This document shows positions 8,398 through 56,175 of a stretch of 64,000 bases of DNA, piece after piece. Source of the DNA: Ilex aquifolium (Eukaryota; Streptophyta; Magnoliopsida; Aquifoliales; Aquifoliaceae); contig OX637403.1 of assembly GCA_951799425.1 (NCBI GenBank), forward strand, positions 32,900,811 through 32,964,810, written 5' to 3'. A model generated the notes under the pieces. It worked only from the letters and a program-made list of their open reading frames with translations. It ran no database searches and was not told the origin of the DNA. Positions within the stretch are counted from its first letter, which is position 1. Each line of letters starts with the position of its first letter. Made by a program: the position numbers and the translations under genes.

Positions 8398-9179
8398 CTA
8401 GTTATTGCCTGTGCCTGAAGGCACAGAGTAAAAAAAATGGTAAATAATAAACATATTTGTATTTATATCCAAAATCAAATTACAAACATAGATGAGAGAT
8501 AAATGAATTTAAGTATCGGTTGTAGTGGGGGTGAGAGGTGGTGGTTGTGGTAGGAGACGGTGATGGTTGTGGTGGGTGGCAATGACCACGGCGACGGGGG
8601 TGGTGATGGTGGTGGCGACGACGATGGCATTGTTGGCGGCGGCGATGGCGGTGGTGGTGGCTGCGATGGCGGTGGTGGCGGCGATGGCGGTGGCGATGGC
8701 GGTGGTGGCGACGGTGGTGACGGGGGTGGGGGGCAGCGGCGACGGTGGCGGTGGCGGTGGTTGTGGCGGTGGTGATGGTGGCGGCGATGACGATGGCGAT
8801 AGCGGCGACAGCGACGATGGTGGTGGTGGTGACGGTGGTGGTGATGGTGGTGGTGGCGGTGGCGACAATGGTGGTGGTGGCGACGACGACGGTGGTGGCC
8901 GTGGTGGTGGTAGAGGTAGTGGTGGTGGGGGTGGTGGTGGGACGGTTTCAAACACTAATTTTTTTTTAAAAATACTTATGAGAAATAATTTCTAGAAGTA
9001 CTTTTAAAAAGCAACTCCAAACACACCCTTAGGGCCCTATTTTTCCTATTAAATTTAGGGTGTTAATATTAGTCGTTAGATTAACTTTAAAGTAAAATTT
9101 AAAGCGATCTCAATCGCGAAAAGTAAAAGTCATTTTGTTTATCTTTTGAGATTTGAATTGTAAGCTACTTTATTATATA
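8398..9179 (-). mobile_element. Helitron-like unit B3 (duplicate of A3)
   Basis: CTAG is at 8398-8401 with the hairpin CTGTGCC-TGAA-GGCACAG. At 782 bp it is the same length as A3 and aligned at an offset of 7,089 bp. Differences are concentrated in the minisatellite (about 8525-8945), where GGC/GAT triplets have been substituted or shifted. Confidence 0.7.
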
Positions 9180-9733
9180 CTAGTTATTGTCTGTGTCTGA
9201 AGGCACAGTGTAATAAAAAATGGTAAACAATAAACATATTTGTATTCATATCCAAAATCAAATCACAAACATAGAGAAGAGATAAATGAATTTAAGCATC
9301 GATTTGAAGTGGGGGTGAGAGGTGGTAGGCAAGAGTGGTGGTGGTGGCGGAGGTGATGGTGACGGTGGTGGCGGCGGTGGTGGTGGTGGCGGCGGCGACG
9401 ACAGTGGTGATGGCGGTGGCGGCGATGGTGGTTGTGGGGGTGGTGGTGGCGGCGACGGTTATAGTGGCGGTGGTGGTGGGGGTGATAGTGGTGGAGCGGT
9501 TTCAAACACTATTTTTTTTTAAAGTACTTATGAGAAATAATTTCTAGAAGTACTTTTAAAAAGTCACTCCAAACACATCCTTAGAGGCCTATTTTCCTTA
9601 TTAAATTTAGGGTGTTAATATTAGCCGTTAGATTAACTTTAAAGTAAAATTTAAAGCGATCTGAACCACGAATAGCAAAAGTCATTTTGTTTATCTATTG
9701 GAATTTGAATTGTAAGCTACTTTATTATATAGA
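9180..9733 (-). mobile_element. Helitron-like unit B4 (duplicate of A4)
   Basis: The 3' CTAG is at 9180-9183, and the TC 5' end at 9732-9733 abuts the next CTAG. The unit is nearly identical to A4 (2091-2645), one base shorter. The minisatellite is about 9310-9500. Confidence 0.7.
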
Positions 9734-10306
9734 CTAGTTATTGTCTGTGCCTGAAGGCACAAAGTAATAAAAAATGGTAAACAATAAACATATTTGTATT
9801 CATATTCAAAATCAAATCACAAACATAGAAAATAGATAAATGAATTTAAGCATCGATTTGTAGTGGGGGTGAGAGGTGGTGGGCGGCAGTGGAGGTGGTA
9901 GGAGACGGTGATGGTTGTGGTGGGTGGCAATGACCGTGGTGGCGGTGGCGACGGCGATGGCAGTGGTGGTGGTTGTGGCGGTGGCGGTGACGGTGGTGGT
10001 GGCGGTGGTCGCGGTGGTGGCGGCGGTGGTGATGGTGGCGGTGGTGGTGGTAGAGGTTGTGGTGGGGGCGGTTTCAAACACTATATTTTTTTTAAAGTAT
10101 TTATGAGAAATAATTTCTAGAAATAATTTTAAAAAATCACTCCAAACACACGCTTAAGGCCCTATTTTTCATATTAAATTTAGGGTGTTAATATTAGCCG
10201 TTAGATTAACTTTAAAGTAAAATTTAAAGTGATCTCAACCGCGAATAGTAAAAGTCATTTTGTTTATCTTTTGAGATTTGAGTTGTAAGCTACTTTATTA
10301 TATAGA
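9734..10306 (-). mobile_element. Helitron-like unit B5 (duplicate of A5)
   Basis: CTAG is at 9734-9737. The 5' end at 10306 reads A|TC-TATATAATAAAG on the minus strand. This is the best-preserved Helitron 5' terminus in the window, with the expected A of an AT target next to it. The minisatellite (about 9865-10075) is a few triplets longer than in A5. A TA/TG/CG microsatellite begins immediately outside the element (10307-10331). Confidence 0.7.
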
Positions 10307-10331
10307 TATATGTGTGTGTGCGCGCGCGCAT

Positions 10332-13689: not shown

Positions 13690-14370
13690 TGATGGGTCAA
13701 GCCCAAATGGCCCAATCTATATAGAAAGCCCAAAGAAGAGTCCAATCCATTACCCAAGCCCAAGCCCACTAAAGAGAAAATTCTAGAGAATGTTAGATAA
13801 GAATTTGAATGTTAGATAAGTATTAGAATGTTAGATTTGAATGTTAGATAGGTATTATTTAATTTGTGCGGTTTGGATTGATTCACGTTGTACGGCTAGG
13901 ATTGATTCCCTACTACTATAAATAGACCACCCATTTGGGTGTTCTAGGATGAAGAAAGAAGCAAAGCTTCTAAGAGTGAGTTTAAGAGAGAGTTCTCTTG
14001 AGATTCTTAGTATGCTCTGTGGTTGCAGTTTAGACTGATCTGCCACATCAGAAAAGATTTCTAGAGATTGAGAGTGTAAGTTGTGAGCTTACTATTGAGT
14101 GTTTGCTTCTCTCTCTCTCTACCTCTCAAGCATTGTAAAACTCTCCGGAGTATCACCATGATTGATCAATAAAACATCCCAGGCCACCGTCGCCTTTCGA
14201 AGAGTGGACGTAGGTCATCCGAGACCGAACCACTATAAACCTCCTGTGTTGATCCCTTATTTACAATTTCGTCATTGATTGTCATTGATTGCCTATTAAT
14301 TGTTTATTAATCATACTCGTACACATTCTTGACTGTTGATCTTGCACGAAGACCAATTTGTGCATCATCA
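13690..14370 (+). repeat. 5' LTR of the gag-only element
   Basis: 681 bp, TGATGGGTC...GCATCATCA. It contains a TATA box (13917-13924) and a CT-rich tract near 14107-14120. Confidence 0.93.
13917..13924 (+). promoter_or_regulatory. LTR TATA box
   Basis: TATAAATA lies about 230 bp into the 5' LTR in a suitable place to start the genomic RNA. The same site is in the 3' LTR at about 17339-17346. Confidence 0.65.
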
Positions 14371-14373
14371 GTT

Positions 14374-14390
14374 TGGCGCCGTCTGTGGGA
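14374..14390 (+). other. Primer-binding site
   Basis: TGGCGCCGTCTGTGGGA starts 3 bases after the 5' LTR. The first nine bases complement an ACGGCGCCA-3' tRNA end, such as plant tRNA-Asp. The same sequence occurs in inverse orientation in the two other LTR elements of this window. Confidence 0.75.
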
Positions 14391-14422
14391 ACGACGTAGT
14401 CTTCCTACCTCTCCCGCAATCC

Positions 14423-15583
14423 ATGGCAATCACCACCAGATCAAAGTCTCATCAACCCGGAGACAACAACCCCGTGCACCAGGAGGAGGCTCCGCCTAAC
14501 AACTCTGTGCACCGGGAGGAGGCTCCACCTCCCCTCGCACCCGAAGGACCCCCTGCTACGGCGACTCCCGCCGTTGGGTCACAACAACAACTCCTGCAGA
14601 CTATGCAGCTGCTGGTGAACCAAAACCAGCAGATCATCCAGTTGATGCTCTCTCAAGGAGGAGTCACCCATCACCCTGTTGGAGGAGTCCCACTCCCTCC
14701 AACAAAGGAAGAGCCACTGCCTGTCTTTTCTGGGCATCAAGTCCCCTACCATGGAGTCCCTCGCCCGAACGCTCCAGGACCACGTCGAGGAGTCCCACAT
14801 CCAGTTCCTCCTCCGCGCGCAGGGGGCACACAGGTACGCCTTTCATGCGACCTAGTGCCGGAAGACGAAGAAGAAAGCCAGTATGGGGATCACGAGAACC
14901 AGTACCAACACCAGACGGAGGATGTCCCCAACCAGTGGGACGAGAAGATAAGGGAAGTGCAAAACCAACTCGGTAAAGCCCTCAACGCCATCAAGGCACA
15001 GGCGCCAACGACCGTGGACCACCTGGTAAGACGCACTGACACACACTTCATTGCTGATATTGTCAACTATCCACTGCCCTCAAAGTTCAAGATGCCCATC
15101 ATCGAGACATTTGATGGCAACAAAGACCCCCTCGAACATCTGGACACCTACAAGTCTCTCATGCAGCTCCACAATGTGCCTGAAGAGATCATGTGCCGGG
15201 CGTTCCCCACCACTTTGAAGGGAACCGCTCGTCAATGGTTCTCCAAGCTCAGGCCCTCTTCCATCCGTTCTTTCGAAGAACTAAGCATGTCATTCGTCTC
15301 CCGCTTCATTGGGGGACACCGCCATCAGAAGCCTATGACCCACCTGCTCACCATCAAGCAGGATAGGGATGAAAGCCTTCGTGAATACCTCGCTCGCTTC
15401 AATAAGGAGGTGCTCCAGATTGATGAGTCGGATGATAAAGTAGTCATGGCTGCCCTTATCGCCGGACTCCGCACGTCCAACTTTATGTTCTCAGTCATCA
15501 AGAAGCCTCCCTTCAGTATGCCCGAACTACTGTCCAGGGCCCAGAAGTATATAAACGTCGAGGACGTCACTAAGGCCCGCTAA
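14423..15583 (+). CDS. Gag polyprotein of the gag-only element
   Basis: An intact 386-aa frame. The start at 14423 (MAITTRSKSH) is chosen because it is the first ATG after the primer-binding site; the open frame upstream runs into the LTR. The N-terminal third is Pro/Gln-rich and low complexity. The retrotransposon gag domain is in the C-terminal half, with the typical W-DEKI, F-DPLEHL-YKSLM, CRAF-LKGTARQWF and SLREYL-RFNKEVL signatures. No zinc knuckle follows, because the frame stops at 15583 soon after YINVEDVTKAR. Gag would form the virus-like particle; Pol functions must come from elsewhere. The high GC and intact frame fit a recent insertion. Confidence 0.88.
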   Translation: MAITTRSKSHQPGDNNPVHQEEAPPNNSVHREEAPPPLAPEGPPATATPAVGSQQQLLQTMQLLVNQNQQIIQLMLSQGGVTHHPVGGVPLPPTKEEPLPVFSGHQVPYHGVPRPNAPGPRRGVPHPVPPPRAGGTQVRLSCDLVPEDEEESQYGDHENQYQHQTEDVPNQWDEKIREVQNQLGKALNAIKAQAPTTVDHLVRRTDTHFIADIVNYPLPSKFKMPIIETFDGNKDPLEHLDTYKSLMQLHNVPEEIMCRAFPTTLKGTARQWFSKLRPSSIRSFEELSMSFVSRFIGGHRHQKPMTHLLTIKQDRDESLREYLARFNKEVLQIDESDDKVVMAALIAGLRTSNFMFSVIKKPPFSMPELLSRAQKYINVEDVTKAR

Positions 15584-15669
15584 GGTGAGTCCTCACGAGG
15601 AGGGGACAAAAGGAAAGAAAGCCGAAAGACTCTCCACCAGAGGCGCCCCATGACGGCCTCTCCCTCCTC

Positions 15670-15885
15670 AACTCCATCTCACCGGAATGAGTCAATAGAA
15701 GGAGTCTCAGACGTCTAGCTCCACAGAGCCCTCCTAACCTCCATCTCACCGGAATGAATCAATGGAAGGACTCTCAGACGTCCAGCTCCACAGAGCCCTC
15801 CTCATCTCCATCTCAATGGAATGAGCCTCAGGCGTCAAGCTCCTCAGCGCCCTCCTCATCTCCGTATCAATGAAATGAGCCTCTG
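15670..15885 (+). repeat. Tandem repeat, about 67-bp period
   Basis: CTCCATCTCACCGGAATGA-type units start near 15672, 15739, 15806 and 15860, and most contain CAGACGTC and CAGCTCC. The last unit is shortened. Confidence 0.75.
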
Positions 15886-16500
15886 CTACGGCAGCCATCT
15901 CCCGAGACTATACGTAGCTCGGCTTCTATGACTTTGCTCTCGCGCAAGTAGTCACCCCTGCCACGGCAGCCATCTCCGAGACTATACGTAGCTCGGCCTC
16001 TATGACTCTGCTCTCGCGCAAGTAGTCACCCCTGCCACGGCAGCCATCTCCGAGACTATACGTAGCTCGGCCTCTATGACTCTGCTCTCGCGCAAGTCTA
16101 TCTCCCGAGACTATACGTAGCTCGGCCTCTATGACTCTGCTCTCGCGCAAGTAGTCACCCCTGCCACGGTAGCCATCTCCGAGACTATACGTAGCTCGGC
16201 CTCTATGACTCTGCTCTCGCGCAAGTCTATCTCCCGAGACTATACGTAGCTCGGCCTTTATGACTCTGCTCTCGCGCAAGTCTATCTCCCGAGACTATAC
16301 GTAGCTCGGCCTCTATGACTCTGCTCTCGCGCAAGTCTATCTCCCGAGACTATACGTAGCTCGGCCTTTATGACTCTGCTCTCGCGCAAGTCTATCTCCC
16401 GAGACTATACGTAGCTCGGCCTCTATGACTCTGCTCTCGCGCAAGTAGTCACCCCTGCCACGGCAGTCATCTCCCGAGACTATACGTAACTCAGTCTTAG
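15885..16500 (+). repeat. Minisatellite, 55-bp core unit with a longer variant
   Basis: The core GAGACTATACGTAGCTCGG followed by CTATGACTCTGCTCTCGCG repeats about ten times. Units alternate between a short form preceded by CTATCTCCC and a long form preceded by GTCACCCCTGCCACGGCAG. The block lies in the untranslated region between gag and the 3' LTR. Confidence 0.88.
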
Positions 16501-16639
16501 CTCATGCGGCCCTCTCACGGGACATCCACAGCTCTCCCTCTCCTAGCTGTACCCGAGCAGCTTACCAGATATCGGCACTGTTCTCAAACAGGCAGCCTAA
16601 CTCCAGCTTAGCGGCTCTCTCGCGGGTCGCCAAAAAAGC

Positions 16640-16815
16640 TTGACATATCTCTGCTCTGCTCTTAAGCAGCAGCCTACTGCTCTCAAGCAGACAACCTACC
16701 TCTGCACTGCTCTCAAGCAGGCAGCCTACCTACCTCCGCACTACTCTCAAGCAGACAACCTACCTCTGCACTGCTCTCAAGCAGGCAGCCTACCTACCTC
16801 CGCACTATTCTCAAG
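16640..16815 (+). repeat. Tandem repeat around GCTCTCAAGCAG
   Basis: CTCTGCACTGCTCTCAAGCAG and CTACCTCCGCACTACTCTC-type units alternate several times. A related block, in reverse orientation and more diverged, is at 57020-57460 in the other gag-only element. Confidence 0.75.
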
Positions 16816-17096
16816 CGCCGAGCACATGCGTCAAGACCCCCCAGGCTCGCCCAAGGCAACTCCGGCTCGCCCAAGACAACTCTAGGTGCTCAAAATGGGG
16901 CTTATAATATATCAAATCGAAGCTCTCGACGAGCCCTACAAAACTCACTTCCTTAGGCAATAATTGATGCTGTAAAAAGTCCAAAAAAAGGCTCAGAAAT
17001 AGCTGTTTTGGCCTCCCGAAGTTCTTCCAGTTATGCCGGTCAGCCGAAAATTCGAGTTTAACCGAATGCCCTCCTCTCCAAGTTTCATTGGACACA

Positions 17097-17113
17097 GGGC
17101 ATTGGGGGGCAAA
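17097..17113 (+). other. Polypurine tract
   Basis: GGGCATTGGGGGGCAAA lies immediately before the 3' LTR. The counterpart in the element at 54904-59269 is the reverse complement of CATTTGCCCCTCAATGCCC, showing that the two elements are related. Confidence 0.7.
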
Positions 17114-17792
17114 TGATGGGTCAAGCCCAAATGGCCCAATCTATATAGAAAGCCCAAAGAAGAGTCCAATCCATTACCCAAGCCCAAGCCCACTAAAGAG
17201 AAAATTCTAGAGAATGTTAGATAAGAATTTGAATGTTAGATAAGTATTAGAATGTTAGATTTGAATGTTAGATAGGTATTATTTAATTTGTGCGGTTTGG
17301 ATTGATTCACGTTGTACGGCTAGGATTGATTCCCTACTACTATAAATAGACCACCCATTTGGGTGTTCTAGGATGAAGAAAGAAGCAAAGCTTCTAAGAG
17401 TGAGTTTAAGAGAGAGTTCTCTTGAGATTCTTAGTATGCTCTGTGGTTGCAGTTTAGACTGATCTGCCACATCAGAAAAGATTTCTAGAGATTGAGAGTG
17501 TAAGTTGTGAGCTTACTATTGAGTGTTTGCTTCTCTCTCTCTACCTCTCAAGCATTGTAAAACTCTCCGGAGTATCACCATGATTGATCAATAAAACATC
17601 CCAGGCCACCGTCGCCTTTCGAAGAGTGGACGTAGGTCATCCGAGACCGAACCACTATAAACCTCCTGTGTTGATCCCTTATTTACAATTTCGTCATTGA
17701 TTGTCATTGATTGCCTATTAATTGTTTATTAATCATACTCGTACACATTCTTGACTGTTGATCTTGCACGAAGACCAATTTGTGCATCATCA
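17114..17792 (+). repeat. 3' LTR of the gag-only element
   Basis: 679 bp, identical by eye to the 5' LTR apart from one CT dinucleotide. It is followed by the target repeat ATTTC. Confidence 0.93.
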
Positions 17793-18827
17793 ATTTCAAT
17801 GAAGTCTGTTTCCCTCCCTCATCCCCCTGCTATTCTATTTCACAGCTTGCATTACCAAATAGTTCCAACAAATCACACAATTCTTGTTCAACGAGAATGA
17901 AAAATTATATCGACATCCCTCAGTAACGTAAATCAACTACCCAGTAGGGTCCCCATTGAAGTTGACCAGGAAAATTTTCCGTTAAATCTTCAGTTCCCTC
18001 TTCACACTTAGCACAGATGAGCACCGAAGGCAGAATAGAACATCTAGTAGTTCTCAATAAAGCCATTCTTTTTTAACAATATTAAACCTCTGCAATTAAG
18101 ATAATATTTTTATTATTGATTACTTGAATAATCATGTCTGGCTCTGGATTTGGCCCTCCTAGAAAGGATAAGACAGAAGATTTAACTTCACGACATTGCA
18201 AGAACTTTCTTTCATGAGCCAGTTTGAGAAAAGCAATCCCTCAAAATGGGTTAAGGGTGGGTTTAAGAACGAACACCATTTTGGAATGATTTGTAGCCAA
18301 TACAATTTTTCATGATTTTCTTCTTTCAAGATTCAATTTAATTCCATTTTTATACTTTTAAAGAAGCAACCTATATTAGCTTGCCTTCAAATGTAACACA
18401 AGGTTTCGCTTATTATAATGTGGGTCAAAAGCAAACAAAACCTCATCCTTGTTGACCTTCTCAATAAAAATATGCTACTCTACCATTTTTCATCCTATTT
18501 TGACCTTGGTAATTTTTTAATTTCAACCAACCAATTTTATTAGTAAATACAAAATATTTTTTATACAATTATTATAGTTTTTTATGTTTTATTTTTTTTA
18601 TTAAATTACAGGTGTGAAACTACATGGCCGAAAAGTTTATCCATTACGTTGTTTGTGTTATGTTGAATTATATCAAATTCAAGTATTATTTTGGACATTT
18701 ATTGTTTGTGTTATGTTGGAATATGTTATTCTACATTATGTTGTGTTAGATTATTTAGAATGTTGTTGGATTATTTAAAATGTTATATTTATTTAGAATT
18801 TTGGATTATGTTGGTTTGAGCTTGGAC

Positions 18828-19751: not shown

Positions 19752-19873
19752 GTTCATCGGTTGGGTCGGTCATTACTGCCGACTACTTTGGTGACGAACA
19801 AGAAGGGAGTCATCAAACCAGTGGATCAACTTGGCTATTCCACAGCTCCTGTCGTCGATAACAAAAAGAAAAG
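19752..19873 (+). pseudogene. Possible terminal exon split by the Tat insertion
   Basis: After a good acceptor-like site (TGTATTTAG at about 19751) an open frame reads TNKKGVIKPVDQLGYSTAP and runs into the Tat element. If the element and one copy of its target repeat are ignored, the frame continues at 32185 and stops at about 32209 in a Lys/Asn-rich tail. The product is unknown and upstream exons were not found. The tail may be chance, so this is a weak call. Confidence 0.28.
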
Positions 19874-20557
19874 TGATGGTGCGAATCTACGCGAATGAGC
19901 TATGGAACAGGGTTATTTAATATGAACGATCCGGGTGAAGCTGAGTACGATGTCTGAGCTGCAAGGCTCGTGCTTGATAAGACAATATGATGCTTAGGGG
20001 ATTTTGGAAAGGGGGTGATAACAAGACAAGATTATAGTAGTTCACCGGCCTGAGCTCGGCTAGTCCACTCTGCAATGGAGTTTCTTGCTCCTCTCTTTCT
20101 TATTGAACCAGTTGAACGTATTACAGTCGTATATGCCCCCCGTGGGGCTCTATTGCCTCCCTTTTATAGCCTCATGCTTACCTCTAATTCGAAATCACCT
20201 CATTTATTGAAGGGATCGTGCCCTATCTTCGTCTATAATCTCGGAGTTACCTAAACTTCCTATGGCTGGCTTCAAACGGCGAGATCTTTGTCTTCTATCA
20301 TGGGATCCTCTCCTTGGTTTTAGGAGAGGATCTTGGTTGTTTACGGGTTTCACGCCTTGGATCAGCCTAATTCCCATTGCGAAGGTATCCGCTGTCATCT
20401 CGCTGCCCTCTTGTCATTTCTCAGTTCACATCTTCAGCTGGGAACCCTTGCGCCCGGCTGGATGAGCTCATACCATGGCTGGATGAGCTCTGCTTATTTT
20501 ACCTGGGCTGAGCTCACTTTCTAAGCTCGTGTCTAGGGCTTATTTTAGGTATCATCA
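19874..20557 (-). repeat. 3' LTR of the Tat element
   Basis: 684 bp bounded by TGATGG and ATCATCA. A minus-strand TATAAAAG lies at 20161-20168. Confidence 0.93.
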
Positions 20558-20644
20558 GTTGCCCCCCAGCCCTTGCCTTAAGTTAGCTTAGGCAGGGGCT
20601 GACCTGTTTTTAAACCAAGCTAGAGTCTGACTGACCTAGGCTTG

Positions 20645-20650
20645 TATAAA
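20645..20650 (+). promoter_or_regulatory. Putative TATA box of the antisense gene A
   Basis: TATAAA in GGCTTGTATAAAGGCAC lies 90 bp upstream of the first ATG of antisense frame A and just inside the LTR. This suggests a dedicated antisense promoter. Confidence 0.45.
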
Positions 20651-20735
20651 GGCACTGCCTTTTTGACGGTTTTCTGTCAATCATGGTCTCCTCGATTCCC
20701 GCGCATGTTCCAGCCCACGTCCTCTCAAGCCATAA

Positions 20736-22674
20736 ATGTCCAAACGGTCATCAAAACCCTCATTCTCACTCTGTTCACCTTCTTCACCGCTCTTCGTCTC
20801 CATTATTCTTGTGATTTCAGACCATCTTACTCAAACTTTCCTGATTTCCTGTCTGAAACCGAATTCCCGGCTCTCGTCTTTGAAGACTTGCAGCGCCTTC
20901 TTCCTTCGTTATTGCTCCAGGCTTCTGTTCGCCGCTATTCCTGAGTTAGGTACGTCCTTTGCTCCTTTCATTTCCTCCTTTGTCCTGGATCCCTCGAATT
21001 CGAGGGAGATATTGGCGAGGTGCACCCCAAGAAGGTATTCCGAGCTCATTCTGCCTTGGGTTTTGGTGGACAGAGGGTTCAGCCTCCCTGAGGTAGAGAT
21101 TGAGGCTCCGCTTCCAATTTATGTGGTCAGACCTGAAGGAGCTGCTGGTAACCCCCTTTTCCTAAGGGTTCCTTTATCTTACTTTTCATTTCTTTTTATC
21201 TAACTGTTTTAGCTCAGATCTTCCACTATGAAGCTTAACCCGGAGGAAATCCAGGCCAAGGTGGATAAGTTGTCAAAGAGTGGCAGAGGTAGCAAGCGAA
21301 AGGTCCAGGTTGGTTCTGGGAGTAGCTCTGCTCCTCAGACCAAAGTTCAAAAAGTGGGGGGGCCAACTTCTTCTTTAGCTGCTAAGGATCTGGCTCCTTC
21401 ACCTAGCTCCTCCGAGGTTGTGAAGACCCCTCCTTCTCCAAAAACCCAGCCTATCTTGGCGGGAGGACAGACCTCTCCTTCCTCGTCAGAGATTGAGAAG
21501 GCTTTGGATGTGATCCCGCGTATCCGACCTGGTAGTTTCAAATACAGCTCTTCAGGGAAGATTATTAAGACACCACCGGTGGGTTCTGAGGGCAAGAAGG
21601 GGACGCTACCCGACGTGAAGGAAGATGATGATTCCTTTTTTGAAAACATGGAGCTCGCCGCAGGGGCTGTTTCCTCTATTCTCCCCGAGTCTGACATCAA
21701 GAGGGCTGCCACTATGGAGCTTGAAGAGTCCATCGCCTCAGCTCTTCAGGGAGCACCTCTGTAAGTCTCGATATTCTCAGTCACCCGCTTAACCTTACGC
21801 CATAGCTGTTTGCCGCTTGCTTTATTTACCTTTGTCTTTTTAGATGGCTATCCACGTAAAGGGCCTGTTGAGGAGAGTTCGGTCTTCCGAGTCTTCTGTT
21901 AAAGCTCTGAAGGCGTATGAGCTCAAGGTTGCGGAGCAGGCTTTTGAGAATGAGGATCTCAGAAACCAAGTAAAGGACCTAACCTAACAGTTGGAGAAGC
22001 AATCCTCTGATCTCAAGGGCTTTCAAGCGGCCAAGCTCAAGGCTGAGGAGGGAGAGAAGAAGGCTCGCGACGAGCTAAGGATTGTGGGGGATGAGCTGAA
22101 GCACAAAACTGAGCTCTGGGCTAAGGCTAACCAGGATGCTTTTGACACCCGCAACTCTCTTGAATTCACAAAGAGAGAATATGACACCATTTGCGAGGCC
22201 AATGAGATTCTCCACAAGGAGGTCAAGGAGAAGAGTGATTTAATAGCTGAGCTGACTGATGAAGCTACCACCCAATGGGCCTCTGGATGGATTGCTTTTC
22301 AGCGCAAGGCTTGCAAGAATTTTCCTGACCTAGATTTCAATTTTCCTATCCCAGCAGAAGGGGAATTGGAAGAAACTGACTCTGATGGTGAGGAAGATAC
22401 CTCAGCTCTTCCTCCTGAAGCCCCGCTCCAGGATATACCTGCTCCTCCCTCTATTGTTCGTGTTGCGTCCTTCTCTGCTGACCTGGTGACCGAAGATCTT
22501 GAACAAGGATCATTACCAGATAGGGCAGAGGCTCCTGGGGTCAGCGTTCCTGACAATTCTACTCCTCCAGCTTTGGGATCCTTGCCCCCTGAGTTCCTGA
22601 GTTCTGCCACTCCTGTTGAGGCTGCATCCGCCGAGCTGCAGGATCTTCTGTCCACTCCCCCTCCAGAAACTTAG
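20736..22674 (+). pseudogene. Antisense gene A of the Tat element (coiled-coil protein, decayed)
   Basis: Several same-strand open stretches look like exons of one gene: 20736-about 21149, 21228-about 21762 and 21844-22674. Intron-like gaps between them start GTAACC or GTAAGT and end TTTTAG. The middle part is Ser/Pro/Lys-rich and low complexity. The last part is a Lys/Glu-rich coiled coil (KAKLKAEEGEKKARDEL) followed by an acidic, Pro/Ser-rich tail. A stop codon at 21985-21987 interrupts the coiled coil, and the best splice sites do not keep the frame, so I treat it as broken. Its opposite orientation to gag-pol matches the extra antisense frames known in Tat elements. The function is unknown. 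Confidence 0.5.
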
Positions 22675-22984
22675 GATTTTTTAGTTGTAACCTCTTTTCT
22701 TTGTAAGAATGTTTTTTTTTTTTTTTTGATGCAACTTTGCCTCGGTCTAGGATTTTTGTGTTACTTTGCAATCTTCATCTGTTTTTCCTTTGCTGGCTTA
22801 GCACATATATACATTTGAATTTCGATTTCGAACTGCACACTTACTTGTTTTGCTTTACATACTCCCCTTCCCCCCTTCGCTTTGAGGGGTGCTGTGCACT
22901 TCTTGAAGCGACATTACTAGATTTGAAGAGTATAGAAGACTTGGTGTTGAGCTCGGTATTTGGAATATTAGGGATCCCTTCCCT

Positions 22985-23145
22985 TTTCTTCTTCATTCTG
23001 AGCCACACAGCTTGATATTGTGAACTGGCGAGTTCCTTCTGAGCTACATGGCTCGAGTTTGTGAATTTAGGAATTCTTACTGAGCTATATAGCTCTTTTT
23101 GTGACCTTAAAAGCTCTTTCTGAGCTTCATGGCTCTTTTAATAGA
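22985..23145 (+). repeat. Short palindromic GAGCT...AGCTC repeats
   Basis: GAGCTACATGGCTC, GAGCTATATAGCTC and GAGCTTCATGGCTC, plus a GAGCCACACAGCTT variant, occur at about 30-60 bp spacing downstream of antisense gene A. They resemble the array at 25280-25885. Confidence 0.6.
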
Positions 23146-23723
23146 CCCTTACTGGAATAAATAACAAATTCCACTGCTTTATTTTTCTGAACTTTCTTCT
23201 GAGTTCTCTTATCCTTCCCTTATCCCCCTTTGCTTTGAGAAGTGCTTCAGTCCTTCTTCAAACAAGATTATGGACTTCATGAGCTGCTAAGTTCTTTTGA
23301 TGAACTGGGGAACCCATCAGGAACTTTATCATTCTGATGTGAGCAAAACTCTTAGAGCTGCAGGTCTGAGAGATCACGCTGAGGTGCAATGTTGCCAACC
23401 GGGCTGAGCTCCGAATTGAGGAATACTCTGGTGGGGTCAGAACTTTCTTCGGTCGTTTTGAGTGCGATAGGAGGGTTAATCTTGCGCTGATTCCTTTCCC
23501 CGCCTTTTTCCCAATCGTTTTCCATAACCGTAACCACCTTTATTAATTAAGAAACCAAAAAGGCAGCCGACTCCCTTTCGCGTGGCTCTTGGTTTCCTAA
23601 ATACTTACAACGTTCTTTAAGTCTCCTATCTTCTGCTGAGTTTCTTTCTTCTTTTGCAAAAAAATATTCCTGAGTTTCTTCTTGATTCTTCGTGGTTACC
23701 CTCTGTTTTCTTCGCAAGCTTTA

Positions 23724-24814
23724 ATGACTGCCCCTACTTCTTCTTTGTTCCAAGGAAGGACTTCCTTCGGGATCGACTGGAAGTGGCATTGCCGCTATTT
23801 ATCTCCATCGTCCCTAGAATCCTCTGATTTGAAAGCCATCCAGAAACGGTTCTTTCCTGATCTCGATCTGCCTTTGCAAATCCCTACCCCGGATGAGCCC
23901 TGTAACTACCTTCCTCGAGGGGAAGTCTGCTTCTTCGAAGGTGCCCTGGACATGAGACTTCGCCTTCACATTCATCCGGCCATAGGGCGAGTTCTTGCCT
24001 ACTATGGCCTATGCCCTTCTCGCCTTTCCCCACGGGGATGGGCTGCTATGGTAAGCTTCTTCCTGTTCTGCCGCCTACATGGTCTTGGCAGGTTCCCCTT
24101 TGTCTCTGAGTTTCTATACTTCTTTGAGATCGAAGAAGACGATGCCCCCTGCTTCAGCTTCTTCCGTTGGAGGAATTTCAAATTACGCCCTTTGGTTCTA
24201 GGCCTTCCCTCCAATCCTGAAGGATGGTCTAGACGCTTCTTTTTTGCTTCTAGGGAGTCTTGGCGGTCCCCTGAGGATCGCTGCCGTGAAGCTAGGATTA
24301 CACAGTCCTGGAAGAGCTTCTCTCGTATTGGTAGGTTCGATCTGAGCTCTCTTGACTTTAAACTTTTCTTGACGATATATTCTCATTATACTCTTCTTGC
24401 TCAGGTCCTCCTGACTTGGATGTGCCCGAGATGATAAATATTGATGAATTGCTGCTTGCTGAGTCTAGGACTTATTTTGAGCTGATGACGAGTGCCAACC
24501 TTTATTTGCTTGGGGCTGAGGCTACTGAATTTGAATTTTCCACTGTTCCTTACCCTTCCTGGACTTCTTTCTCTGACTCTGACGACGAAGGGGATTCCGA
24601 TGAGGATGGGGACGCTGGTGCGAGCTCAAAGAGGCGTAGGAGGGATGGCTCTTTTTCCCCTGATTCTCTGTCCACTATCTTCCTCACCCCGGCAGGTCAG
24701 AAGCTTCTTGATTCACTTTATAAGGCTGAGCAAGAAAGGGACGAGCTGAAGAAGGAGAATGCTAGCCTGAAGGAAGAAATTGCTGAGCTGAAGTCTCAGC
24801 TTAAAAAAGATTAG
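23724..24814 (+). CDS. Antisense gene B of the Tat element (gypsy-type transposon domain protein)
   Basis: Two exons, 23724-24330 and 24405-24814, total 1,017 nt (338 aa). The intron of 74 bp begins GTAGGT and ends CTTGCTCAG, and the phase is kept across it. The N-terminal half (FFEGALDMRLRLHIHP, then LSPRGWAAMVSFFLFC) resembles the plant 'putative gypsy-type transposon' domain found in many Tat antisense frames. The C-terminal part has an acidic Asp/Glu stretch, a SKRRRR basic cluster that could be a nuclear signal, and a final heptad coiled coil ending LKEEIAELKSQLKKD. The open frame extends upstream without an ATG; 23724 (MTAPTSS) is the first ATG. It is on the strand opposite to pol. No biochemical role is established. 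Confidence 0.7.
24331..24404 (+). other. Intron of antisense gene B
   Basis: 74 bp, with GTAGGT donor and a pyrimidine-rich CTTCTTGCTCAG acceptor. Removing it joins two long open frames in phase. Confidence 0.7.
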
Positions 24815-25279
24815 GGCCTCTATCCCCTTGCATTTCCTTTCTTTTTTTGAACGTTGCCAAATTATGGCTCTCTTTAAATGTTTCTTGAATGTTTGTATTC
24901 TGAATACCAGATCTTTCATTTCTGAATCTTTATGAACTGAGGAGTCCGACCCGAATTCTGTAAACTTATTTCAGCACACTCTTTGGGTTCAGAACACGAA
25001 CGTAGATGGAAAACAGAAGATCATGTTTGTACCGTCCTTAGTCCATGACTGGTTCCACAGGTCGGACCATGAATATTGATGGAAAACAGAAGATCGTGTT
25101 TGCACTGACCTTAATTCCTAACTGATTCTCGTAGATGATCTCTGCTGCACCAAACATATTGGGGTCTTCGAGTGCGTCGGCAGTGCATAAGGACTACTGG
25201 TCGTGGGGAAAGACTGTTGGTGTCTCCAAGAAGAGACCAGCTTTGAATTTTATGAGCCTAGAAGTGTGTCGTTTGCGTA
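24815..25279 (+). other. 3' region of antisense gene B
   Basis: Non-coding, T-rich just after the stop. An imperfect duplication contains GATGGAAAACAGAAGATC near 25006 and 25079. Confidence 0.5.
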
Positions 25280-25885
25280 TGAGCTGAAGAGCTCATCTTG
25301 ACCTTTTTAAGCTGAGAAGCTTATCCCTTATTTATGAGCTGAAGAGCTCATCTTGTATTTTATAAGTTTAGAAGCTTATCGCTTATTTATGAGCTGAAGA
25401 GCTCATCTTGTATTTTATAAGCTTAGAAGCTTAGAAGCTTATTTATGAGCTGAAGAGCTCATCTTGATTTTTATAAGCTGATAAGCTTATCGTTTACTTA
25501 TGAGCTGAAGAGCTCATCTTGATTTTTTATAAGCTGAGAAGCTTATCGTTTGTTTATGAGCTGAAGAGCTCATCTTAATTTTTATAAGCTAAGAAGCTTA
25601 TCGTTTGTTTATGAGCTGAAGAGCTCATCTTGATTTTTATAAGCTGAGAAGTTTATCGTTTGTTTATGAGCTGAAGAGTTCATCTTGATTTTTATAAGCT
25701 GAGAAGCTTATCGTTTGTTTATGAGCTGAAGAGCTCATCTTGATTTTTATAAGCTGAGAAGCTTATCGTTTGTTTATGAGCTGAAGAGCTCATCTTGATT
25801 TTTATAAGCTGAGAAGCTTATCGTTTATTTATGAGCTGAAGAGCTCATCCTGATTTTTATAAGCTGAGAAGCTTATCGTTAGTTG
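25280..25885. repeat. 55-bp tandem array of paired hairpins, 11 copies
   Basis: Each unit contains ATGAGCT-GAAG-AGCTCAT and ATAAGCT-GAGA-AGCTTAT, two 18-base palindromes with 7-bp arms and 4-base loops, separated by T-rich spacers. TGAGCTGAAG starts are at 25280, 25334, 25390, 25446, 25501, 25557, 25612, 25667, 25722, 25777 and 25832. Both palindromes are kept in most units; a few have one arm substitution (near 25651 and 25678). The array is between the ends of antisense gene B and pol, which converge on it. Confidence 0.92.
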
Positions 25886-25963
25886 TAGAGCTTATTGCAC
25901 CTTCCTTTACTTTGGAAACCATACAAGGGTGAATAAAAGACTCGTTTATTCTTATTAAAACAG

Positions 25964-28900
25964 CTATGTTATAAATAACACTTGCTGAAAGAACTTCTTA
26001 AGGTGTTCGGCGTTCCAAGAGTGTGGTAGGACCTTCCCCTCCTCTGTTTGTAACTCATAGTTCCCTGGTCTGATTACCCTTGATACGATATAGGGTCCTT
26101 CCCAGTTGGGTCCCAACTTCCCATGCGTGGGATCCTTCCTTGCAAGCAGAAGCCTCCTAAGTACCAAGTCTCCAGCCTTGAAACTTCTGTGCCTTACCTT
26201 CCTGTCGTAGTATCTTGCAGTTTTCCTTTGGTAAATTTGGACACGATGCAGAGCTTTGTCTCTTTTTTCATCCAAGAGATCGAGGTTTAATAAGAGAGAC
26301 TCATCATTGTGTTCGGCATCTGCAAATTCCACCCTTGGTGATTGGAGCCCCACCTCAACAGGGGCTACCGCTTCGGTTCCAAAGGCCAAAGCGAAGGGGG
26401 TTTCCTGAGTTGCAGACCTGACGGTGGTCCTGTAGGCCCACAGCACCTCAGGGATGTACTCCACCCACTTGCCTTTTAGGTTTTCTAATTTGGTCTTCAG
26501 AGCTGTCTTTATGGTTCTGATTGTGACATCTGCTTGCCCATTGGATTGAGGATGTGCAGGAGCTGAGAAATAGTTCTTTATCCCAAGCTCAGCACAAAAG
26601 CTCTTAAACTTTGAGTTGTCAAACTGCTTCCCATTGTCAGACACGACTGCTCTGGGAACCCCAAATCTGCAAACTATCGACTTCCAAACAAAGTTTTGGA
26701 CTTTTTGTTCGGTGATTATTGCCAAAGGTTCGACCTCTGCCCACTTGGTGAAGTAATCCACCCCTATAATAGCAAACTTGCATTGTCCCACACCGGTCGG
26801 AAGGGGTCCAAGAATATCCAAACCCCACTATTGGAAGGGCCATGGGCTTACCACCGAGGTTAGCAGCTCAGGTGGACAGTGGGAAACATTGGCATGTTCC
26901 TGGCAAACCTTGCATTTTTTTACTAAATCGGTGGCATCTTTGAGCATGGTTGGCCAATAATATCCTTGTCTCAGTACTTTTCCTGCCAAGGCCCGAGCTC
27001 CTATATGATTGCCACATATCACTTCATGTACTTCTCTGAGTATATAGTTGGCATCTTCATCTCCCACGCACTTAAGGAGAGGCGTTGAGAATCCTTGTTT
27101 GTACAGATTTCCTTGCAGCAAGGAAAACCTAGCTGACCTGGTCCTCAGCTTGGATGCCTCCTTGGCATCGCTTAGCAGAGTCCCACTCTGCAGGTACCCT
27201 ATGATGGGTCCATCCAGCTCGGCTGAGCTTCAATTGGTAGTATGTCCTCTTCTTCGATACCCACTGAAGGCTCTGGAATGTGCTCTACTGGTATTAGTCT
27301 ATCCAAATCTTCTTGTGAAGCAGTTGCTAACCTCGCCAATGCATCCGCTCGTGCATTCTCTGCTCAGGGCACGTGTCTGACGTGAACCTGCACAAATTTT
27401 TTCATTAGTTCTCGTACCTTTCTGAGGTAAAGGACCATTTTTTCGCATCTCGCTTCGTAGGACTCCTCTATCTGCTTTACTACCAGTTGAGAGTCACTGC
27501 AGATCTCTAGCTGCTCTGCTTCCATAGAATAAGCAAGATTGAGCCCAGCGATGACAGCTTCATATTCTGCCTCGTTATTTGAAGCCTTGAACCCAAACCT
27601 AAGGGCATACTCGACATCTATTCCTTCTGGAGAGGTCAAGATCATTCCTGCACCGCTTCCCTGAGCATTGGCAGCTCCATCTACTGAAAGCCTCCATATG
27701 GGGAGGTCTAGTATTAAATCTGTGGTCTCCCTAGGCGCTGCTGCTGTGAACTCTGCGATGAAATCCGCCAAAATTTGCCCTTTGATCGCAGTTCTTGGCT
27801 TATATCTGATATCAAACTCACTGAGCTCTATGGCCCATTTAACCAGCCTCCCCGAGAACTCTGGCTTATGCAACACTTGCTTCAATGGCTGGTCTGTTGG
27901 AATCTCGATAGTATGAGCCTGGAAATAGGGTCTAAGTCTCCTGGCTGTTGTAACCAATGCTAGAACGAGTTTTTCCATCTTTGGATATCTCTCCTCTGCC
28001 CCCCTCAGAGCTCTGCTACAGTAGTAGACTGGTTGCTGAGCTCTGTCTCGTTCTCTAACCAGCGCTGCGCTTGTTGAAAAATCTGAAACTGCTAGGTAGA
28101 GAGTAAGGACTTCCCCTACTAAAGGGCTCACCAAAACAGGAGGAGAGCTCATATAATTTTTCAGGGCTTCGAATGCTTCTTCACACCTGGTATCCCACTG
28201 GAACGCCTTCTTCAAGATCTGAAAGAATGGCTGGCACTTATCGCTTGACCTAGACACAAAACGGTTCAAGGCAGTTATCCTGCCTGTCAAGCGTTGCACC
28301 TCCCTTGTGTTGGACGGTGATTGCATTTCCACCATTGCCCTAACCTTCTCTGGGTTAGCTTCAATCCCTCTGCTGCTAACTATAAAACCCAGGAATTTTC
28401 CTGCCGAGACCCCAAATGCGCATTTCGCAGGGTTGAGCTTCATTTTGTACTCCTTTAGAATCTGGAATGATTCGGCTAGGTGCTCGATGTGGAGCTCTGC
28501 TTTTAGTGACTTTATTAACATGTCATCGATGTAAACTTCCATGGATGCTCCTATTTGTTTTTGGAACATCCTATTTACCAGTCGCTGGTAAGTGGCTCCA
28601 GCGTTCTTTAGTCCGAAAGGCATGACTTGATAACAGTATGTTCCCTGTTCAGTTACAAAGGAGGTCTTCTCTTGGTCATTGGGATCCATCCTAATCTGGT
28701 TATAACCTGAGAAGACGTCCATGAAGCTCAGCAGCTCGTGTCCAGCTGTGGCATCCACTATTAAGTCGATCCGAGGTAAGGGAAAACAATCATTGGGGCA
28801 TGCTCGGTTGAGATCAGTGAAGTCGATGCACAGTCGCCATTTGCCATTGGTTTTCTTAACGAGGACCACGTTCGCCAACCAGGTAGGGTAGTCAACTTCC

Positions 28901-29948
28901 CTGATAGCCTTGGCATGGAGGAGTTTGCTGACCTCCTCATTAATTGCCCTTTGCCTTTCGGAGGCAAAGCTTCTCCTCTTTTGTTTGACGGGCTTGCAAG
29001 TTGGGTTCACGCTTAGCTTATGGGTAATAACCGAAGGGTCAATTCCTTCCATGTCTTCTTGCTTCCAAGCAAACACTCTTATATTCTCCTTCAGGAACTG
29101 GATGAGGAGGCCTTTGAGCTCAGCATTCAGTCTGGAACCTACGTAAACGAGGTGTTCTGGCTTCCCATCAAGATGAATTGGTTCCAGCTCTTCTGAGGGC
29201 ATTGGTCTTGTCTCCATTTCATCTCTCATGTCGAGTTCATCCAATTGGATGTTCTCAACCTCCTTCCTCTTTACAGAAGCCATGTAGCATTCTCTTGCTA
29301 TACGCTGGTCTCCTCGGACTGCTTCGATTCCATTTTCTGTAGGGAATTTGACGACCAAGTGATAGGCAGAAGGGATTGCCTTCATAGAATTAAGGGATGG
29401 CTTTCCAAGCAAGATGTTGTATGCAGAGGGTGCATCGACCACTAAGAATTTTACGGTTGTGGTGGCTTGGCAAGGTGGGTCCCCTGGGGGAGCACCCTTT
29501 CCCCGGAGAATCCTAGCAAGTGAGTGTTTACAGGTTCTAGTCTCTCCCTTCCTATGTCCATCTTGTAGAATGCAGGTGCGAAAATGATATCCACCGAGCT
29601 CCCGTTATCGATTAGAACCCGATGAACGGTTCTATTAGCCACCACAGCTCGCACCACCAATGGATCATCATGAGGGTACTGGCATCCCTCCAAATCAGCA
29701 TCTGAAAAAGTGATAGCTGTATCTAAGCGTGGTGCTTTGGATACAGCGTGTACTTCGAGAGCTTCTTCGGCTCTGATCCGTCGGAGGTGTGCTTTCCTGG
29801 CTGAGCTGGACTCTCCGCCTCCAGCGAACCCTCCAAATATTACTCTGATCTCACCTAGAGGTTGCTGATGTGGTGCAGGTGCCCGCTGTTGGGGTGGTGG
29901 AGGTGGAAGAGCTTGGTCCTGGTTGTCATGGGCTACGAAGCGACGTAA
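25964..29948 (-). pseudogene. Pol polyprotein of the Tat element (protease, RT, dual RNase H, integrase), broken
   Basis: Domains in minus-strand order are as follows. Protease has [15 protein letters not shown] near 29610. RT has [13 protein letters not shown] and catalytic YIDDM near 28530. The first RNase H runs about 28130-27750. A second, cellular-type RNase H ([24 protein letters not shown]) runs about 27690-27400. The integrase zinc finger (HEVICGNHIG, CKVCQEHAN) is at about 27030-26890, and the integrase core starts at MDILGPLP (26821) and ends at 25964. The breaks I see are a TAG separating gag from pol (29949-29951), a frameshift around 29450-29500, a stop at about 27364, a frameshift near 27200 and a stop near 26827. 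At least five lesions make this copy non-functional. Confidence 0.9.
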
Positions 29949-31424
29949 CTAACCTCGCCGGATCAAGAACTCGATTTCCTTCTTTAGTTGAACGCAGTCA
30001 TCAGTGTGGTGACCATGATCTCTGTGGTAATCGCAGTACTTCGTGGGGTCTCTCTTGGCCGGATCTGCCTTCATCCGAGGTGGCCATCTTAAGAACTTCT
30101 CGTTTTGGAGCTCATACAGGACTTGTGATACAGCGGCAGTGAGTGGGGTGAATCGCTGAGGTCCGTATCTGGGCTGTAGTTCAGGCTGCATGGGGCCCAG
30201 GCGATCTCTGACATTTCCTCTTCTCTTTGGCGAGCGGTCCCTATCCCTTCTTGGAGACCTCTCTCGCCCTTTTTCCTTCTTGGGACTTCGGTCCCTCCTC
30301 TTTTCTTCCTTTTCCTTCTCCTTTCGTGAGGATGTACCCCCTACTTTGGAAAGGAGTGCCTCTTCACCATTTATATACTTCTCTGCCTTGGCTAACACCT
30401 CAGCCATACTTGTCTGAGGATTCTTCGATATGGAGAACATTAAATCATTTGATTGTACTCCTAACCCTGCAATAAAGGCAGTTATGGCGAATTTTTCGTC
30501 TGGAACGTCTACTTTTAGTGTCTCCGAGTTGAACCTTTGGACATAAGATCTCAGGTTTTCTTGGGGCCCCTGTTTCACATTCAGTAGGTGGTAGCTCGAC
30601 TTTCTGTATATCCTGGCTCCTATAAAGTGAGATACGAAAGCTATGGAGAGTTCTTTAAAGGATGAGATCGAGGCCGGTGGAAGCCTGTGAAACCAGGCTA
30701 GGGCGGAGCCTTTCAATATGATGGCAAAAGCTCTGCAACGTACAGGATCCTGGTATCCATGCAGCTCCATTTGGTTCTTGTAAGTGTTGAGATGATCTAC
30801 GGGATCTTTCGTTCCTTCAAAGACCTCTACTTGCGGCATCCTGAACTTTGGTGGGAGGGGAAAGTGTAGCACTCCAGTGGTGAATGGGGACTCGGTTTGT
30901 TGCACTAGGACATCCATTGTAACCGGAGTCTTGCTCTTTACAGCCTCCTTCATGTGGTTGAGCTCTTGCTGGATGTCTTTGAAGCGTTGCTCCCAATGCT
31001 GTTCTCTTCTGTCTTGCGGGTAAGGGAAAAAATCGTCCCTCTCACCCCCATCGTTCTGACTTTGCACTTCATCGTTGTGGCCATTTCTAGGGGGTAGGTA
31101 AGGAGCATGCCCCCTGGTCTGGCTGCTCTCTCCTCCTTCGTCGACCTCTCTAAGGGGGTCCCAGTGTCGTTGTTCCCTATGAGGGGGATTATTCTGGCCT
31201 TCTTGGGCCGGTCGTGCCTCCTGCGGGCGCTGTATGAGCTTTGATAGCTCTGCATTTTCCCTTAGCAAACGTTGATTGACGAGGCGAAGGGCCTCCATCT
31301 CGTTATTAATGGGGGAATTAGCCTCTTGAACGTTCCCGGGTTGTCTGCCGTTGGTAGCTTCCTGCTGATCTTGCATTCGTGGTAGGTTTGTTTGACTTCT
31401 GCTCATATTTCGAGTTGTTACCAT
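29949..31424 (-). CDS. Gag polyprotein of the Tat element
   Basis: An intact 491-aa frame starting MVTTRNMSRSQ about 40 bases after the primer-binding site. The N-terminal part is Gln/Glu-rich and low complexity. The central gag domain shows VDHLNTYKNQM, CRAFAIILKGSALAWFHRL and ENLRSYVQRFN. A basic Arg/Lys/Ser-rich segment (RSPRRDRDRSPKRRG) precedes a C-terminal zinc-binding CDYHRDHGHHTDDC motif. The frame stops with TAG after EIEFLIRRG, and the same frame continues into protease. This stop may be a mutation or a readthrough site. Gag of the gag-only elements shows the same domain at lower similarity. Confidence 0.9.
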   Translation of the reverse strand: MVTTRNMSRSQTNLPRMQDQQEATNGRQPGNVQEANSPINNEMEALRLVNQRLLRENAELSKLIQRPQEARPAQEGQNNPPHREQRHWDPLREVDEGGESSQTRGHAPYLPPRNGHNDEVQSQNDGGERDDFFPYPQDRREQHWEQRFKDIQQELNHMKEAVKSKTPVTMDVLVQQTESPFTTGVLHFPLPPKFRMPQVEVFEGTKDPVDHLNTYKNQMELHGYQDPVRCRAFAIILKGSALAWFHRLPPASISSFKELSIAFVSHFIGARIYRKSSYHLLNVKQGPQENLRSYVQRFNSETLKVDVPDEKFAITAFIAGLGVQSNDLMFSISKNPQTSMAEVLAKAEKYINGEEALLSKVGGTSSRKEKEKEEKRRDRSPKKEKGRERSPRRDRDRSPKRRGNVRDRLGPMQPELQPRYGPQRFTPLTAAVSQVLYELQNEKFLRWPPRMKADPAKRDPTKYCDYHRDHGHHTDDCVQLKKEIEFLIRRG

Positions 31425-31487: not shown

Positions 31488-32179
31488 TGATGGTGCGAAT
31501 CTACGCGAATGAGCTATGGAACAGGGTTATTTAATATGAACGATCCGGGTGAAGCTGAGTACGATGTCTGAGCTGCAAGGCTCGTGCTTGATAAGGCAAT
31601 ATGATGCTTAGGGGATTTTGGAAAGGGGGTGATAACAAGACAAGATTATAGTGGTTCACCGGCCTGAGCTCGGCTAGTCCACTCTGCAATGGAGTTTCTT
31701 GCTCCTCTCTTTCTTATTGAACCAGTTGAACGTATTACAGTCGTATATGCCCCCCGTGGGGCTCTATTGCCTCCCTTTTATAGCCTCATGCTTACCTTTA
31801 ATTCGAAATCACCTCCTTTATTGAAGGGATCGTGCCCTATCTTCGTCTATAATCTCGGAGTTACCTAAACTTCCTATGGCTGGCTTCAAACGGCGAGATC
31901 TTTGCCTTCTATCATGGGATCCTCTCCTTGGTTTTAGGAGAGGATCTTGGTTGTTTACGGGTTTCACGCCTTGGATCAGCCTAATTCCCATTGCGAAGGT
32001 ATCCGCTGTCATCTCGCTGCCCTCTTGTCATTTCTCAGTTCACATCTTCAGCTGGGAACCCTTGCGCCCGGCTGGATGAGCTCAGACCATGGCTGGATGA
32101 GCTCTGCTTATTTTACCTGGGCTCCTGGGCTGAGCTCACTTTCTAAGCTCGTGTCTAGGGCTTATTTTAGGTATCATCA
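31488..32179 (-). repeat. 5' LTR of the Tat element
   Basis: 692 bp. It differs from the other LTR by about six substitutions and an 8-bp tandem duplication (CCTGGGCT) near 32118. Confidence 0.93.
31775..31782 (-). promoter_or_regulatory. Tat LTR TATA box
   Basis: On the minus strand GGCTATAAAAGGGAGG contains TATAAAAG. It is conserved in the other LTR (20161-20168) and in the solo LTR (32708-32715). Confidence 0.7.
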
Positions 32180-32184
32180 AAAAG

Positions 32185-51345: not shown

Positions 51346-51350
<5 letters not shown>
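50665..51350 (-). mobile_element. Helitron-like unit C3
   Basis: CTAG is at 50665-50668, followed by GTGCCTGAAGGCAC. The minisatellite (50795-51115) is long. The 5' end dissolves into a TA then TG microsatellite (51351-51408), so the TC terminus is not visible. Confidence 0.62.

Positions 51351-51408
<58 letters not shown>
51351..51408. repeat. TA / TG microsatellite
   Basis: About 30 bp of TA followed by about 28 bp of TG, at the 5' edge of Helitron unit C3. Confidence 0.9.
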
Positions 51409-55989: not shown

Positions 55990-56175
55990 GCGTGGATGAG
56001 GCTCTTGGGATGGCACTTACTCCAAGGTTTCTTAGATGAGGCTCTTGGGATGGCCCTTACTCCAAGGTGGCTTGGATGAGGCTCTTGGGATGGTCCTTAC
56101 TCCACGTGGCTTGAATGAGGCTCTTGGGATGACCCTTACTCCAATGTGACTTGGATGAGGCTCTTGGGATGACCC
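55990..56175 (-). repeat. LTR minisatellite, second block
   Basis: About five units of the same sequence as at 55335-55520, in the second LTR copy. Confidence 0.85.

Follow-up and report, generated by a model that had tools for sequence, protein, structure and literature searches.

A conserved palindromic dyad in tandem arrays of Retand-type retrotransposons, tentatively read as a row of protein-binding sites

Tandem arrays are already known from Tat/Retand LTR retrotransposons. They were described by Vondrak et al. 2019 (PMC7004042), citing Macas et al. 2009, and excerpts of PMC11963269 report them in about half of the Retand elements surveyed, stating that their origin and function are unknown and that the role of the antisense TRP28 gene is unknown as well. 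The arrays of this lineage are described as hypervariable or family-specific. Hairpins are not mentioned in PMC11963269, where palindromes occur only in a cited title, and palindromes are not mentioned in PMC7004042; among the papers listed by literature searches, none dealt, judged by title or start of abstract, with palindromic arrays of Tat elements.

Two further systems are close in design. In the plant VANDAL transposons, short motifs are gathered in dense non-coding tandem arrays and recognised by an element-encoded protein; VANC21 has a 9-base same-orientation motif to which binding was shown, and the targets vary considerably between related elements (excerpts of PMC5735166 and PMC10398659). 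The Drosophila gypsy insulator is made of twelve Su(Hw) repeats, lies in the 5' untranslated region and is bound by a host zinc-finger protein (excerpts of PMC2493044).

The array described here agrees with the known Tat/Retand arrays in lineage, region and scale and in the presence of a TRP28 antisense ORF, and differs from them in that one dyad motif is kept across families within one genome. Unlike the targets of VANC, it consists of a conserved dyad in an LTR element, and its sites are putative. With the gypsy insulator it shares the layout of about a dozen units inside a gypsy-type element, but it is found between pol and the 3' LTR. We know of no dyad design in the gypsy insulator. What appears to be new, judged from sequence and within the literature searched, is the conservation of the dyad across families of different unit length, the constraint at the level of sequence, and the retention of the arrays in a young gag-plus-array derivative.

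The window, that is, the whole 64-kb stretch of DNA analysed (C13:32900811-32964810 of an 800-Mb plant genome), carries on its minus strand a 12.3-kb LTR element of Retand/Tat type (Ty3) that is flanked by the target duplication AAAAG and hosts the array (Table 1). Its LTR pair shows 6 differences over 684 aligned positions, plus 8 gap columns. Pfam revealed the Ty3 order of gag, reverse transcriptase/RNase H and integrase, and the match of the antisense ORF to PF04195 (E 2.7e-07, 31.1 bits) lies above the Pfam cut-off of 26.2. The element was assigned to Retand because the Ty3 gene order and the antisense TRP28 ORF match the lineage features given in the excerpts of PMC11963269. The further antisense ORFs had no Pfam match at E 0.01, and a homologue search with the protein of the TRP28 ORF gave none among 420 candidates at E <= 0.001. 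The interval between the pol stop and the 3' LTR (20558-25963) spans 5.4 kb. The setting proposed in the first-pass annotation, a Tat element with the array between convergent genes, is borne out by the Pfam order and the antisense TRP28 ORF. The array had also been placed between the 3' ends of the two genes, which is accurate for pol, whose integrase stop is 71 bp off, but loose for the antisense gene, which ends at 24434, about 0.8 kb away.

Table 1. Positions in the window of the features of the Retand element and its arrays.
Feature	Position	Strand	Remarks
3' LTR	19874..20557	-	TSD AAAAG at 19869-19873
Further antisense ORFs	20736..22674	+	20736-21203, 21228-21764, 21991-22674
Second, weaker array, between antisense ORFs	22992..23135	.	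41-bp units
AATAAA, ~20 bp past second array	23156..23161	+	
Antisense ORF with TRP28/Transposase_28 domain (PF04195), gene B	23682..24434	+	
Two 67-bp direct repeats, 73 bp apart, adjoining array	24989..25128	.	
Main array	25243..25892	.	55-bp units, 22 dyads, degenerate edges
AATAAA, ~40 bp past main array, before pol stop	25932..25937	+	
pol, integrase part (Pfam rve)	25964..26821	-	stop codon 25964-25966
pol, reverse transcriptase + RNase H part	27364..29442	-	
gag (Pfam Retrotrans_gag)	29949..31424	-	
5' LTR	31488..32179	-	TSD AAAAG at 32180-32184

The main array has a period of 55 bp, with 11.8 copies at 91% matches (TRF), so that at least three tandem units are present between pol and the 3' LTR. 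A scan for dyads with 7-bp arms and a 4-bp centre identified 11 dyads of type A (ATGAGCT-N4-AGCTCAT; 10 perfect; 25279-25848) and 11 of type B (ATAAGCT-N4-AGCTTAT; 7 perfect; 25307-25876), which alternate at a spacing of mostly 28/27 bp. The array of two-dyad units first noticed at 25280-25885 is therefore confirmed as the TRF array minus its degenerate edges. As 11 two-hairpin units, it was described correctly in the number of dyads but too regularly, given that the central 4 bp of the B dyads vary (GAGA, TAGA, GATA, AAGA) and that one unit, near 25417-25442, is irregular. The four-base centre is constant in the main dyad classes. Perfect dyads number 17 inside the array versus 48 across the entire window, and dinucleotide shuffling of the array left on average 0.092 (at most 3 in any of 1000 shuffles). 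A shuffled unit (55 bases plus the unit's own first 17) contained two or more dyads in 2 of 20,000 cases. Genome-wide, 11,900 exact type A and 7,852 exact type B dyads were counted, versus 3 and 2 for the reversed-pattern controls. Chance palindromes are ruled out by the shuffles and these controls, and the earlier impression that the two-palindrome design looks selected holds in so far as the design is kept beyond chance.

Other repeats were seen at the locus and in its surroundings. At the site of the direct repeats, related copies have 112-bp units holding ATGAGCT-AAGG-AGCTCAT-like dyads, and in a sister subfamily 112-bp tandem units occupy the linker between the TRP28 ORF and the array (L017 905-1146, L013 1091-1243). 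The second array comprises 3.5 units of 41 bp, each with two short dyads of the GAACT-N4-AGTTC and GAGC-N6-GCTC types; it is recognisable in 6 of 11 other regions (L106, L108, L110-L113) and, at its edge, in a seventh region as well. Elsewhere in the window, a 40-bp tandem unit (TCCAAGGTGGCTTGGATGAGGCTCTTGGGATGACCCTTAC type) forms several blocks (55322-56185, 59053-59129), and long GGT/GGC-rich minisatellite blocks lie at 1-3264, 8071-10321 and 49549-51361; the stretches 1008-3213 and 8097-10310 among these are 97.7% identical across 2.2 kb.

The distribution of the array was explored in related copies. The first ten places with A dyads on C1 are all inside Retand-type elements, nine directly after the integrase and the tenth (L071) after a cut gag, which on this small sample rules out a free-standing satellite. 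In the nine integrase-adjoining loci, the purine-rich centre lies on the non-pol strand in nearly all dyads. Loci found by the A pattern (L063-L072) are biased by choice as regards arm conservation. Copies were therefore also chosen by integrase alone: arrays are present in all of 20 copies (L073-L092) spread over 136 hits that are 94-100% identical to the integrase of the window, and in all of 8 copies of a more divergent sample (L117-L124, from 150 hits 81-100% identical to a query, L069, that had itself been found by the A pattern). Absence of the array from most copies of the family, which would have spoken against a role, was thus not observed, with arrays in 28 of 28 integrase-sampled copies. 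The position after the integrase is fixed, and the dyad recurs across unit lengths of 27, 28, 40, 41, 47, 54 and 55 bp. Four of the more divergent Retand copies (L118, L120, L122, L123) have a 47-bp unit type with dyads 19 and 28 bp apart. Regions located by TRP28 gave a different picture: an array was found in 2 of 10 (L093, L101) and none in the other 8 (L094-L100, L102), where the integrase is in view only for L094; these regions were taken at a guessed distance from the TRP28 hits and may miss arrays. L094, a Retand relative with 72% integrase identity, has no dyad array within 1.1 kb past the integrase. Weak 29-32-bp repeats rich in GGACCCGGTG follow its integrase.

The arms were compared with their surroundings by counting transversions. 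Between neighbouring units of the same type in the 20 integrase-sampled loci, the values are 0.009 for the arms, 0.046 for the 4-base centre and 0.038 for the spacers. When the 54-bp family is compared with the 55-bp family (10 loci each), the arms stay at 0.009, whereas the centre rises to 0.202 and the spacers to 0.182. The arm/spacer ratio therefore falls from 0.244 within arrays to 0.049 between families, a 4.8-fold drop (2.8-8.1 in 300 bootstrap draws over loci); a wider, partly dyad-chosen sample gave 0.203 and 0.051. Only spacers of equal length enter this contrast, the 4-base centres posing no alignment problem, and the 20 arrays include three gaps that suggest a missed unit. Within this one genome, spacers, centres and periods thus differ between families and the dyad arms hardly do. 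Since arm transversions are the same within and between families while those of centres and spacers rise, the arms are constrained: centres and spacers have been turned over and the arms have not. This agrees with the initial observation of largely preserved arms and varying spacers, and the opposite outcome, arms changing as often as spacers, did not occur.

Conserved palindromic arms may reflect either pairing in RNA or the sequence itself, and covariation was analysed over 1323 dyad places from 74 loci (227 distinct 18-mers), dyads with more than 4 arm mismatches, of which L117-L124 hold 5, being left uncounted. Among the distinct dyads, the Watson-Crick fraction at pair 3, the position that separates types A and B, is 0.846 versus 0.496 expected under independence, and that at pair 5, the position that sets apart the ATGAACT/AGTTCAT arms of the 40-bp arrays, is 0.793 versus 0.730. 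Pairs 1, 2, 4, 6 and 7 are within 0.035 of independence; the largest deviation is that of pair 2 (0.771 versus 0.738), where T-A has in a few cases been replaced by C-G on both arms. Covariation of the arms, proposed as a test, is accordingly clear at one pair, mild at a second and near independence at the other five, and the general compensatory change characteristic of a structured RNA was not found. Genome-wide, mixed dyads with one A arm and one B arm number 979 versus 19,752 unmixed, and pair 5 shows 1,253 two-sided changes (any centre) versus 359 and 258 one-sided ones (purine/pyrimidine centres only), all of these counts being non-independent owing to array duplication. An excess at pair 5 of right-arm C>T (36) over left-arm G>A (8) was discarded, being reversed genome-wide in type A (258 versus 359).

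Wobble pairs were used to look for a preferred strand. The 227 distinct dyads hold 101 G-U pairs on the plus-strand RNA and 107 on the minus-strand RNA. Over the 1154 dyad places of the first wobble set, which leaves out the window's copy and L071, the figures are 150 and 117, the places not being independent. A scan of 22600-26400 against Rfam gave a single match, at 20 bits far below the cut-off of 50, and a known RNA family was rejected. An RNA hairpin under pairing selection was rejected as well, with clear compensation confined to pairs 3 and 5 and no consistent strand preference in the wobble; the suggested roles in RNA packaging or small-RNA production thereby find little support. It seems that sequence rather than RNA pairing has been kept, within a covariation test that is limited by the strong sequence identity. 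On balance, a symmetric sequence recognised in double-stranded DNA fits better than a pairing-selected hairpin, because compensation is nearly lacking outside pairs 3 and 5 and the G-U pairs of the distinct dyads are equal on both strands.

Short elements with arrays were also found. One of them (L103; C1:4806200-4812200, element 787-4373) is a whole element with LTRs 99.83% identical, in which gag runs to codon 408 and is followed by dyad arrays with units of 27 and 40 bp, which extend to less than 0.2 kb from the 3' LTR. It retains the LTRs, the leader, part of gag and the arrays. There is no room for pol, since 1.1 kb separates gag from the 3' LTR and the arrays take up about 0.94 kb of this; the absence of pol rests on this gap and on searches with protein pieces, of which that for the second half of reverse transcriptase/RNase H is uninformative (1/8). 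Integrase and TRP28, looked for by protein pieces, were not found. Two further copies, L104 (LTRs 99.64% identical) and L105, have the same gag/array junction, and the 40-bp array of the derivative has 16-18 units, compared with 3.5 units of 41 bp in the window. Counting L103 itself, at least 40 places match the junction at 97-100%, with 40 of the 658 candidates having been scored. The group is a young, multi-copy, non-autonomous Retand derivative. TR-GAG elements are a class of non-autonomous LTR elements, which the derivative resembles in having only LTRs and gag; unlike them, it has a gag that breaks off at codon 408, where about 0.9 kb of dyad arrays is attached. Recent copies without convergent genes thus still carry arrays, as expected of cis-acting sites and equally of passive hitch-hiking. 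A second short LTR-gag-LTR element lies in the window itself (13690-17796; repeats of 685 bp, 99.6% identical; gag ORF 14336-15583, with 40% identity to the Retand gag in the part that matches). Its tandem arrays at 15662-16816 are without dyads of 6 or more base pairs, so that gag-plus-array elements need no palindromes and arrays can arise and persist without them, which calls for caution in ascribing a function to the dyads.

The reading that we favour, with a probability of roughly 40%, is that the array is an iteron-like, cis-acting row of two-fold-symmetric, sequence-specific protein-binding sites. The grounds for it are the dyads, their constant centre, the conservation of the arms with little compensation, the lack of a clear strand preference, the fixed position and the retention in derivatives. 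The putative site would have the core (R)AGCT-N4-AGCT(Y), present about 20 times at 27-28 bp in double-stranded DNA, and a dimeric protein would bind the dyads cooperatively. We infer the binding, the identity of the protein and its effect: the binder may be the antisense-encoded TRP28 of the element, acting in trans, or a host factor, and the bound protein would regulate the chromatin or transcription of the element, by analogy with VANC on the VANDAL motifs and Su(Hw) on gypsy. TRP28 is a natural candidate, its ORF standing beside the array and its DNA-binding residues having been predicted by others (excerpts of PMC11963269). That gag-only copies in which TRP28 was not detected keep the sites is what one would expect if a protein acting in trans targeted them. 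A more specific proposal, in which the dyads would be the operator array of TRP28 in an element-encoded, VANC-like regulatory or anti-silencing system that gag-only derivatives exploit in trans, is in our judgement quite unlikely. Several observations run counter to a site array in general. The spacing, at 27-28 bp, does not correspond to an integral number of helical turns, the 8 of 10 TRP28-located regions lack an array as described above, and the arrays of the second gag-plus-array element have no dyads. The excess of plus-strand wobble over all places also counts against it, as does the second dyad of the 40-bp units in L103-L105, which keeps T opposite G (U-G in plus-strand RNA) in 47 of 54 units.

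The main alternative, possible if somewhat unlikely, is a hairpin minisatellite that propagates itself without selected function. The dyads would pause the reverse transcriptase and cause template switching, so that units with intact dyads would be duplicated preferentially and broken ones lost; the arms would be conserved by molecular drive, or by repair of one arm from the other. Such behaviour is consistent with periods that change freely (the unit lengths listed above and 112 bp), with array lengths that differ between copies and with the recurrence of the gag-plus-tandem-array design in an element without dyads. Moreover, one published proposal derives the tandem repeats of Tat elements from abnormal strand transfer (Vondrak et al., excerpts of PMC7004042). 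Repair of arm from arm should, however, compensate throughout, while compensation is conspicuous at pairs 3 and 5 alone, and a minisatellite on its own gives no reason to expect the same arms in families that differ by transversions at about one fifth of their centre and spacer positions.

It is unlikely that the arrays are RNA elements of antisense mRNAs, lying in 3' untranslated regions, where, in the plus direction alone, they would help to form the 3' end or to stabilise the transcript. On the element's plus strand, AATAAA occurs only at 23156, 25932 and 30471, and two of these three directly follow the two arrays; that at 25932 is a candidate poly(A) signal of an antisense transcript. An exact AATAAA is found after the main array in 28 of 40 loci, the window's copy included; of the 6 other copies having the second array, 4 show AATAAA past that array. 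T-rich tails come after nine of the plus-strand dyads; the nine plus-strand hits of a bacterial-type terminator scan restate this combination of dyad and T-run and are uninformative on a plant polymerase. Compared with shuffles, two units fold better on either strand (z -2.5 on plus, -4.8 on minus), and the U-G of the 40-bp units and the wobble excess over places point to plus-strand RNA. On the other hand, the distinct dyads have no such excess, the minus strand folds better relative to shuffles, and arrays persist in gag-only derivatives where no antisense gene was found. In the more divergent sample, AATAAA is present in 1 of 8 copies (L124, of the 54-bp type) while all 8 have arrays, and for this reason a one-way antisense 3'-end role is possible in the subfamilies of the window but is not common to all array-bearing families.

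A function in the genomic RNA, with hairpins of the sense strand aiding packaging, dimerisation or strand transfer, is considered very unlikely. The young derivative is multi-copy, as its junction matches indicate, and combines the arrays with LTRs, leader and part of gag, and the sense strand is the one that folds best against shuffles. These points are set against the absence of a sense-strand wobble preference, the scarcity of compensation and the absence of the array in the relative L094. The two-way transcription terminator or insulator between convergent genes that was first suggested, although matching the place of the array between pol and the antisense gene in the window's element, is most improbable, because transcription of the genomic RNA has to pass the array before the 3' LTR is reached and the gag-only derivative without detected antisense genes retains its arrays.

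A conserved dyad that occurs thousands of times in one genome offers a concrete target for the questions of what the Tat/Retand arrays do and what TRP28 is for. Should no protein bind it, the arrays would instead illustrate well how biased amplification can maintain the arms of a palindromic minisatellite. If TRP28 or a host factor binds AGCT-N4-AGCT, LTR elements would share a site-array strategy with the VANDAL transposons and the gypsy insulator.
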